A stretch of DNA of 64,000 bases from Spirochaetia bacterium (GTDB lineage Bacteria > Spirochaetota > Spirochaetia > Treponematales > Rectinemataceae), in contig JARKOY010000074.1 of NCBI GenBank assembly GCA_029975555.1, positions 1 to 64,000 of the forward strand, in the 5' to 3' direction. The position numbers were made by a program, and so were the translations under genes. The notes beneath the pieces are model-generated. The model ran no database searches, was not told the DNA's origin, and worked only from the letters and a program-made list of their open reading frames with translations. Numbering within the stretch: the first letter of the stretch is position 1; each line of letters starts with the position of its first letter. This document shows positions 40,799-43,701 of this stretch, piece by piece.

Positions 40799-41104
40799 TC
40801 ACTCTTTCAATATCGAATCGATGAGCTTTTTGAGTTCGAGGTCGATATCGCCTTTCTCCTCCACGCGGCCCATGTCTATCTGGAACACGCCGTCGCGGAA
40901 CACGATCGGACCACGCTCGGGCGGCAGAGGAATTTCCTCATCCTCCTGTTCCAACTTTGCAAGCGCGCGGACGTAGCTGTCTTTTTCTTCGTTTGGGGAG
41001 TGCCTGTAGCCGTCCTTTGCAGGCATGGAACGCCACAGAGGCTGGGTATATCGGACTGCCCCTACCCGAAGGTCATCGTCCTGTCGTTCAGATTTCTGAT
41101 TCAT
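40799..41104 (-). CDS. Small acidic hypothetical protein
   Basis: A 101-residue, highly charged protein (rich in Glu, Asp, Lys, Arg) with no membrane segment or signal and no domain I recognise. The C-terminal end (DIDLELKKLIDSILKE) could form an amphipathic helix. It is the first gene of the unit with exonuclease III, the rhomboid and kbl. It has no Shine-Dalgarno site; a TGTAAT -10-like box ends 5 nt before the ATG, suggesting a leaderless message. Confidence 0.65.
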   Translation of the reverse strand: MNQKSERQDDDLRVGAVRYTQPLWRSMPAKDGYRHSPNEEKDSYVRALAKLEQEDEEIPLPPERGPIVFRDGVFQIDMGRVEEKGDIDLELKKLIDSILKE

Positions 41105-41166: not shown

Positions 41167-41181
41167 TGCTATACTGGCTCC
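41167..41181 (+). promoter_or_regulatory. Extended -10 promoter of the JAMM-DinG gene
   Basis: TGCTATACT (TATACT at 41170-41175), then six bases GGCTCC, then the ATG at 41182. This is the same geometry and the same TTGTGCTA core as before the kinase gene at 32330. The first transcribed base should be the A of the start codon. Confidence 0.65.
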
Positions 41182-43701
41182 ATGAGCAAAAAGCACAGTG
41201 CCGTCGTCGACGCTGCAACGCGCTTCTCTCCGGAGGCGCGGGACAAGCTCCGCGAGGCCATCTTCAGCATGGAAGGAAGGGAAGTCTTTGCAATAGGTGC
41301 GCTCGACGCCGCCGGCATCGTCCAGACAGTCGAGGTCGTCGCCCGGGGGACAGAGGGCGCCGTGGCCGCACCGTTCCGTTACAGAGCGCGCGCGCAGGTG
41401 CTCATTCACAATCACCCTTCAGGGACGCTCTTTCCCTCGGAGGCGGATATCGCCGTGGCAGCCGAAGCGGGGACAGAGGGCATCGGGAGCTACATCGTTG
41501 ACAATGACGTGTCGCAGGTGCTGGTCGTCGCAGAACCGTCCCGCCCCAAGGTGCTCCGTCCGCTCAGCGCCGATGAAATCGCGGGTGTCCTCGACACAGG
41601 CGGAAAGCTTTCGCGCGTCATGCCCGACTTCGAGCCGCGTCCTTCGCAGGTCGATATGGCCCACGACGTCTCAGAAATCATCTCTGACGGTGGCATCCTC
41701 GTCGCCGAAGCTGGCACGGGGGTCGGCAAATCCTTCGCGTATCTCATACCTGCCCTCGCCTGGGCCATCGGCAATGATGAGCGCGTGGTCATCTCCACCG
41801 CGACGATCAATCTCCAGCAGCAGATATTCAAAAAAGACTTCCCCCTTGTGAGCGCACTCTTCAAAAAGCCGGCAAAGGCCGCAGTGGTCAAAGGCCGGGG
41901 AAACTATCTGTGCAAGCGCCGGCTCTACGAGGCGATCGAGGAAGACACCCTATTTTCTGACTCATCCATCAAATTGAAGCAGATTCTGGAATGGGACAAC
42001 AGTGGAGGAAGTGGGGACAGAGCTGATCTAGGAATTCCCGACGATGATCCGATATGGAGCCGCGTGTGTTCCGAGAGCGACTTTTGTCTCTCCGTACACT
42101 GCGCATACCACGACAAATGCCATGTCCTCCGCGTCAGGCTCGAGGCGGCGAGCGCGCAGATCATCATCGCGAACCACCACGTGCTGCTCGCGGACCTGGA
42201 GGCGAAGCGACTCCGGGAAGGGAGCATGAACACCATCCTGCCTTCTTACCAAGCGCTGGTGCTCGACGAGGCCCATGCGATGGAAAGCAGTGCGACAAGC
42301 CTCTTCTCCGAGACCTTTTCAAAGCGCTCCGTCCAGAGGCTGCTGGCAAGGCTCTTCAGGCGAAAAAAGAGGGTGCAGAGAGGAATTCTCCCGGCCCTAG
42401 CCGCGCTGTCGGACATTCCTTCCGCGCTCATCGATGCGGCGCGCGCGCAAGCCGAGAGCGCCGGGGCGGCCGTCGATGCGTTCAATGCAGTGGCGGTGGC
42501 GTCGTTTTCGGAAAAAGACTCGAGCCTCTTAGTGCGAAACCTCGAAGGCCTCAGACGCACGGCATTTCATTCGGCGCTGCAGAATCTCGAGCGCGAAATC
42601 GCGAGACTCGTGACCCGCCTCGGAGAAATCATCGAGGCGACGCCTCCGAAGTTCGAAGACGAAGAGGCCGTGATCGACCTCAAGCTCACCACGCGCGCGC
42701 TCCAGGAGATTGCGGCCCTCGTGCCGAGGTTCAAAACTCCCGAGGCTGAGCCGACCACCATCTTCTGGCTCCAAGTCGACCATACAAACCCTAAAGAGAC
42801 GATAGCCATTTGTACGGCCACCCCGCTGGAGGTAGCCCCACTCCTCGCCGAGCGGCTGTTCAGCAAGGTTCGTTCCTGTATCTGCACCAGCGCGACCCTG
42901 ACGATCAACGGCTCGTTCCAGTGGTGGCGGAGTCGTGTGGGCCTTTTGAACAGAGAGAGCGAGGCTGCCCATCTGTCCGACACGACACCCGAAGGGCAGT
43001 CTCTGCCCCGCACCATCCGCATCGTGGAAAAAACCTACCCCTCGCCCTTCCCCTACGCCCGCCACGCGATGCTGGCCATCGACACAGGCGCTCCATCACC
43101 AGATGCGCCTCAGTTTCCGTCCTACTTGCATGAGGCGGTGGCGAAGCTTCTGCAGGCCTCGAAGGGAAGGGCCCTGGTGCTGTTCACCAGCCACAAAGCG
43201 CTCTGCGACACCTACGATGCAGTCGCCCCCCTCCTCGAAAAAGAAGGCATCCTCGCGCTCAGACAGGGGCAGAAAGACCGATATTCACTGTTGCACACCT
43301 TCGTGCACGACATTTCGAGCGTGCTCTTCGCCACGGAATCCTTCTGGGAAGGCGTCGATGCGCCGGGAGAGACGCTTTCACTCGTGGTCATCACGAAGCT
43401 CCCCTTCCGCGTGCCCACGGACCCCATTCAGTCGTCCAGGGCCGCGGCCATCGACGCCCGGGGCGGCAACTCCTTTGTCGAGATGAGCATCCCCGAGGCC
43501 GTAATCCTTTTCAAACAGGGGTTTGGAAGACTCATCCGCCACTCGAACGACAGGGGGGTGGTGGCGGTGCTCGATGTGCGAATCGCCAAAAAGACATACG
43601 GCTCACTCTTCGTTTCCAGTCTGCCCACGTGCAGGCTCGAAACCGGCCCTCTGGATCAGCTCTGCGCCAGTGTGGCAGAATTCCTCGACGACGGAAGGTG
43701 A
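41182..43701 (+). CDS. DinG/XPD-family helicase with N-terminal JAMM (RadC-like) domain
   Basis: An 839-residue fusion. Residues 1-150 form a JAB/MPN domain with an exact JAMM zinc motif: H76-x-H78-x7-S86-x2-D89 (HNHPSGTLFPSEAD), plus an upstream Glu, closest to RadC. The rest is a superfamily 2 helicase: Walker A EAGTGVGKS, four Cys in NYLC, SDFC, VHC and DKC placed for a [4Fe-4S] cluster, DEAH (LDEAH), and C-terminal motifs SFWEGVDAPG and QGFGRLIRH. DinG unwinds R-loops, forked DNA and G-quadruplexes. The JAMM domain may act on a ubiquitin-like or peptide partner or only bind it. The ATG at 41182 is set by a -10 box. Confidence 0.9.
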   Translation: MSKKHSAVVDAATRFSPEARDKLREAIFSMEGREVFAIGALDAAGIVQTVEVVARGTEGAVAAPFRYRARAQVLIHNHPSGTLFPSEADIAVAAEAGTEGIGSYIVDNDVSQVLVVAEPSRPKVLRPLSADEIAGVLDTGGKLSRVMPDFEPRPSQVDMAHDVSEIISDGGILVAEAGTGVGKSFAYLIPALAWAIGNDERVVISTATINLQQQIFKKDFPLVSALFKKPAKAAVVKGRGNYLCKRRLYEAIEEDTLFSDSSIKLKQILEWDNSGGSGDRADLGIPDDDPIWSRVCSESDFCLSVHCAYHDKCHVLRVRLEAASAQIIIANHHVLLADLEAKRLREGSMNTILPSYQALVLDEAHAMESSATSLFSETFSKRSVQRLLARLFRRKKRVQRGILPALAALSDIPSALIDAARAQAESAGAAVDAFNAVAVASFSEKDSSLLVRNLEGLRRTAFHSALQNLEREIARLVTRLGEIIEATPPKFEDEEAVIDLKLTTRALQEIAALVPRFKTPEAEPTTIFWLQVDHTNPKETIAICTATPLEVAPLLAERLFSKVRSCICTSATLTINGSFQWWRSRVGLLNRESEAAHLSDTTPEGQSLPRTIRIVEKTYPSPFPYARHAMLAIDTGAPSPDAPQFPSYLHEAVAKLLQASKGRALVLFTSHKALCDTYDAVAPLLEKEGILALRQGQKDRYSLLHTFVHDISSVLFATESFWEGVDAPGETLSLVVITKLPFRVPTDPIQSSRAAAIDARGGNSFVEMSIPEAVILFKQGFGRLIRHSNDRGVVAVLDVRIAKKTYGSLFVSSLPTCRLETGPLDQLCASVAEFLDDGR

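Follow-up and report, generated by a model that had tools for sequence, protein, structure and literature searches.

DinG-type helicases may carry a further enzyme domain at their N-terminus, as in the ExoDinG and EndoDinG proteins of S. aureus and Bdellovibrio. A 2025 review names, in its section 3.8, a subgroup called 'RadC-like DinG' with a protein of Desulfuromonas soudanensis as the example; it notes the residues E/H/H/D, models a zinc ion and states that the subgroup has had zero research (PMC11981726). JAB domains of the RadC clade have been proposed by Iyer and Aravind to be nucleases, partly from their fusions to DinG and by an argument from context (PMC5512222, PMC3482391). The literature searched reports no activity for RadC-type JAB domains, nor nuclease activity for any RadC or JAB domain, and the name 'RadC' is itself disputed.

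The protein described here comes from a spirochaete of the genus Rectinema (Treponematales, Spirochaetota) and belongs to the RadC-like DinG subgroup, so the fusion is already known. Domain order, the E/H/H/D site, a YoaA-like helicase and the lack of HolC are shared with the description in the review, and nothing essential in that description differs. Its text on the subgroup makes no mention of Spirochaetes, of a residue-loss test or of decayed or deleted domains. What is added here is a residue-retention test, a set of whole-domain losses and two decayed copies, which are absent from the relevant text of PMC11981726, PMC5512222 and PMC3482391.

The Rectinema gene

The gene lies in a window of 64 kb, the whole stretch of DNA analysed, and its features are collected in Table 1. 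The open reading frame is intact, from the ATG to a stop codon ending at 43701. An in-frame TTG 18 nt 5' of the ATG could be an alternative start, but an alignment of six Rectinema species favours 41182. An extended -10 box (TG-C-TATACT, 41167-41175), kept in the six species with varying flanking bases, ends 6-7 nt 5' of the start codon; it was not among the boxes listed by a plain -35/-10 scan. Being so near the ATG, this box would place the start of transcription at about the start codon, and the mRNA may be leaderless.

Table 1. Predicted features of the RadC-like DinG gene and its product (window coordinates)
Feature	Position	Strand	Evidence
Complete gene, RadC-like JAB plus YoaA/DinG-type Fe-S helicase	41182..43701	+	839 aa; ORF, profile matches, orthologues
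RadC-type JAB/JAMM domain, residues ~17-120	41230..41541	+	PF04002; AlphaFold; matches RadC 2qlc and MPN+ enzymes
E34, predicted catalytic Glu of JAMM motif	41281..41283	+	Present in 102/103
H76-N-H78-PSGTLFP-S86-EA-D89, predicted JAMM metal site, HNHPSGTLFPSEAD	41407..41448	+	Each residue 102-103/103
Short linker, residues ~121-130	41542..41571	+	Predicted structure; helicase structural matches begin ~126-131
YoaA/DinG-like helicase, residues ~131-839	41572..43698	+	NF053712 544 bits; 6fws Z 35.7; motifs
Predicted Fe-S cluster ligands C244, C302, C307, C313	41911..42120	+	Conserved 96/96

The JAB domain

The first-pass annotation of this DNA had proposed a JAMM (RadC-like) domain fused to a DinG-type helicase, and the Pfam RadC profile, the YoaA/DinG profiles and the fold matches of AlphaFold models all bear this out. 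PF04002 matches residues 21-94 with 30-36 bits (cut-off 22.1); the first 153 residues by themselves give 36 bits (E 7e-9). The same 153 residues reach 16.8 bits with the Prok-JAB profile, under its cut-off of 25, and the NCBIfam RadC models are also below theirs (PRK00024.1, 31 against 180 bits; TIGR00608, 27 against 133.85 bits).

The JAMM motif has been defined as E-Xn-H-S/T-H-X7-S-X2-D, with distant relatives having Asn for the first Ser (PMC300881). The exact H-x-H-x7-S-x2-D that was first noticed within the N-terminal 90 residues is made up of H76-N-H78, S86 and D89; adding E34 as the catalytic Glu completes a motif that fits E-Xn-H-(S/T/N)-H-X7-S-X2-D. A chance motif was rejected on the profile and fold matches and on the single occurrence of H-x-H-x7-S-x2-D among the six reading frames of the window. 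The model of the domain alone has a pLDDT of 91, and that of the full-length protein a pLDDT of 88 and a pTM of 0.81. Structural matches of the domain include a Caldiarchaeum Rpn11 homologue (Z 10.6), CSN5 (Z 10.0) and RadC (2qlc, Z 8.4); Foldseek concurs in finding it to resemble MPN+/RadC folds. There are no nuclease folds among the structural matches listed, a list that does not exclude them.

With the RadC family the domain shares the JAB fold, the pattern HNHPSG...PS..D and a score above the Pfam cut-off, but it falls far below the NCBIfam RadC equivalog cut-offs and lacks the upstream HhH part. The LDH motif found after the Asp in the ordinary RadC of the same genome (at C113:155010) is missing as well. 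As an ordinary RadC is present besides the fusion, here and in most relatives, the fused JAB domain forms a separate branch. RadC-type domains outside DinG fusions were also seen within other large open frames, of 1993 aa (G044:C4:64186-64521), 815 aa (G047:C50:12364-12681) and 678 aa (G043:C54:5049-5402).

The first-pass annotation had also raised a deubiquitinase-like switch, in which the domain would strip a ubiquitin-like tag off the helicase or off a partner. The JAMM fold and motif and the presence of ThiF-type E1 relatives in the genome would suit such a switch, but ThiF is ordinary in bacteria, with matches in 12 of 14 control genomes, no ubiquitin-like gene adjoins the locus, the family fits the RadC profile rather than that of Prok-JAB, and the sequence offers no evidence of a ubiquitin-like partner. 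In the search for E2 relatives, the controls gave no match anywhere. We consider this idea very improbable.

The helicase

YoaA/DinG models match residues 136-835 at 544, 462 and 380 bits. The closest, NF053712 (YoaA), is nevertheless below its equivalog cut-off of 680 bits, and the protein differs from E. coli YoaA also in its extra JAB domain and in having no HolC in its genome, where a search that was positive in the E. coli and Caulobacter controls found none. The helicase motifs (Walker A, EAGTGVGKS, 176-184; DEAH, 362-365) are intact, and the four Cys are invariant in 96 of 96 family members; the original description of a complete DinG with four Cys thus holds. S. aureus ExoDinG, in contrast, is without the Fe-S cysteines. 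The helicase part of the model resembles that of E. coli DinG (6fws) with Z 35.7 and that of S. aureus ExoDinG (8zef) with Z 34.9. In the alignment to ExoDinG (8zef, 9ii8), helicase residue ~131 falls on residue 234-236, so that the JAB domain occupies the place of the exonuclease; ExoDinG and EndoDinG carry a nuclease where the Rectinema protein has JAB.

Distribution and genome context

With the full-length protein as query, a helicase match was found in 56 of 59 relatives and in 182 of 198 genomes sampled over Spirochaetota, and most full-length matches include the JAB domain. A domain-alignment scan of genome contigs gave 80 loci, from Treponema and other Spirochaetes, Desulfuromonadales, Planctomycetota, Gemmatimonadota, Halanaerobiales, Fusobacteriaceae and BRC1. 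The domain and a helicase share one ORF in 79 of them, and the remaining locus stops at a contig edge; the scan pattern contained HNHP and is unusable for judging histidine loss. A mobile-element origin was rejected, the JAB domain alone having no match in phage and plasmid records; matches there to the helicase only are to DinG proteins of other types or lie on chromosomes that were classed as plasmids.

Upstream lie a divergent gene for 101 aa (40799-41104, minus strand), an ExoIII-type gene and a rhomboid gene, and downstream are mannose-6-phosphate isomerase and YaiI. The 101-aa product has no Pfam match; counterparts of it, 42-87% identical, stand next to the helicase gene in 10 related loci. 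These neighbours are conserved mainly in close relatives and give no hint of a function.

Retention and decay of the catalytic residues

Retention was assessed in 124 distinct proteins plus that of the window, picked by full-length match rather than by motif from the relatives, a Spirochaetota-wide sample and fetched regions. E-H-H-S-D is complete in 102 of the 103 readable domains, and two further proteins clipped by contig ends keep H-H-S-D. A further 20 are without the domain; some 10 of them possibly belong to other DinG lineages, and one, L215 from a fragmented genome, begins within the domain. Eight columns are invariant among the 102 domains (E34, G56, H76, N77, H78, P79, S86 and D89), five of them JAMM residues, against a median column consensus frequency of 0.5. 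Within the genus, and where dS is measurable, dN/dS is 0.06-0.16 for the JAB domain, close to the 0.05-0.14 of the helicase. As judged from these comparisons, the JAMM site is demonstrably under strong selection.

By the first-pass annotation, its reading would fail if homologues had often lost the JAMM residues in nature, which would leave the domain only structural; such loss was looked for and not seen. Decayed copies were met in two proteins only. In one from a Treponema-group genome (L150, G236:C3) the residues read V-S-H-S-D, with E34 changed to V, H76 to S and the loop damaged or shortened; the helicase is otherwise intact. In the other, from Fusobacterium vincentii (L223, an 823-aa ORF), both metal histidines and the catalytic Glu are replaced within the N-terminal ~130 aa and the helicase is kept. 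The domain is intact in another Fusobacteriaceae genome (L130), and L045 also carries it (HNHPDG...PSEAD).

Such decayed but persisting domains would agree with a docking role, in which the JAB fold binds a fork partner as HolC does for YoaA and the metal only holds the fold; the lack of HolC in the window's genome and the survival of JAB-less relatives point the same way. A purely structural metal site, however, would not need an invariant E34 and S86, nor would the catalytic set be expected to supply five of the eight invariant columns, and we regard docking as unlikely. The retention of all five residues in 102 of 103 domains, together with their share of the invariant columns, makes the domain look catalytic rather than structural, and we hold catalysis to be quite probable.

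Loss of the whole domain

In a tree of the helicase part only, built by a quick method and with an uncertain root, short forms are nested in domain-bearing groups at least four times. L154 stands beside L141; L046 and L049 fall within a domain-bearing group of 13 rows (support 100); L047, L048 and L206 fall within another of eight rows (100); and L207 is beside L162 (100). Changes between presence and absence of the domain on this tree number slightly fewer than 13. The genomes of the L049/L050 type, 99% complete and each in a single contig, hold an ordinary RadC and no separate copy of the JAB domain. A split gene in the domain-less relatives was rejected, as only ordinary RadC was found and the flanks of their helicase genes contain no HxHP motif. 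From these sequences, the JAB domain appears generally to be either kept with its site or removed whole. The lineages that dropped it keep the helicase, so it is dispensable there. A search of their helicases for an interface signature gave one weak column only, W194.

Gammaproteobacterial YoaA (L219, L222) falls among domain-bearing rows, at forks that are open or weakly supported. By its place in this tree, YoaA could have lost a JAB domain.

Proposed function

The JAB domain is most likely, as far as sequence and predicted fold can tell, a hydrolase coupled to the helicase and standing where other DinG proteins carry nucleases. We favour, with a probability of roughly 45%, a chromosomal, vertically inherited YoaA/DinG (XPD-like) DNA-repair helicase with an N-terminal metallo-hydrolase that would process a nucleic acid strand or end. 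The helicase would be loaded onto the single-stranded DNA of a fork that is blocked or mispaired, and would then open the obstructing strand. The tethered JAB domain would hold zinc via H76, H78 and D89 and hydrolyse what unwinding exposes; E34 would act as the general base, and S86 would stabilise the transition state. Zinc binding, hydrolysis, coupling to unwinding and action at blocked forks are inferred. The joint role at stalled forks suggested in the first-pass annotation is plausible by kinship with YoaA.

Since a JAB domain with almost invariant catalytic residues is fused to a helicase, its substrate should lie at the DNA that the helicase opens. The domain sits exactly where ExoDinG and EndoDinG carry nucleases, which is why nucleic acid is taken as the leading candidate, a tentative choice by analogy with somewhat less than even odds. 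Intact helicase motifs and Fe-S ligands, and a domain usually removed whole if not kept, are in favour of the hydrolase reading. Against it, the literature searched gives no nuclease activity for a RadC or JAB domain, the closest folds with known chemistry are those of isopeptidases (the Rpn11 homologue and CSN5) and not of nucleases, and lineages without the domain can do without it.

The fold leads to the main alternative, a peptidase for proteins bound to DNA: the helicase would run into a crosslinked or tightly complexed protein, which the JAMM domain would clip. FANCJ and DinG are both XPD-like Fe-S helicases. The protein could be a one-chain counterpart of FANCJ and SPRTN, where FANCJ unfolds the crosslinked protein and the SPRTN metalloprotease then cleaves it (PMC12279946). 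This functional parallel is drawn by analogy, and the eukaryotic pair are two separate proteins of which SPRTN is not a JAMM enzyme. The full motif is invariant, including the Ser seen in isopeptidases, and the best structural matches are MPN+ peptidases at Z ~10. Known JAMM enzymes, on the other hand, are narrow isopeptidases and not general proteases, and RadC-clade JAB domains are said, in the discussion of that clade, to have no groove that would take a ubiquitin tail (PMC5512222). We hold the peptidase to be possible but doubtful. Its fullest form, an unrecognised one-chain bacterial machine of several phyla in which an XPD-family helicase and a JAMM metalloprotease would clear DNA-bound or crosslinked proteins, seems quite improbable. 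A nuclease, argued from position, and a peptidase, argued from fold, cannot be separated by the present analysis.

JAB domains of the RadC type abound in bacteria, and here one of them is durably tied to a DNA helicase. What such JAMM domains do thereby becomes testable in one protein via point mutants, with relatives that naturally lack the domain or carry a decayed one as controls.
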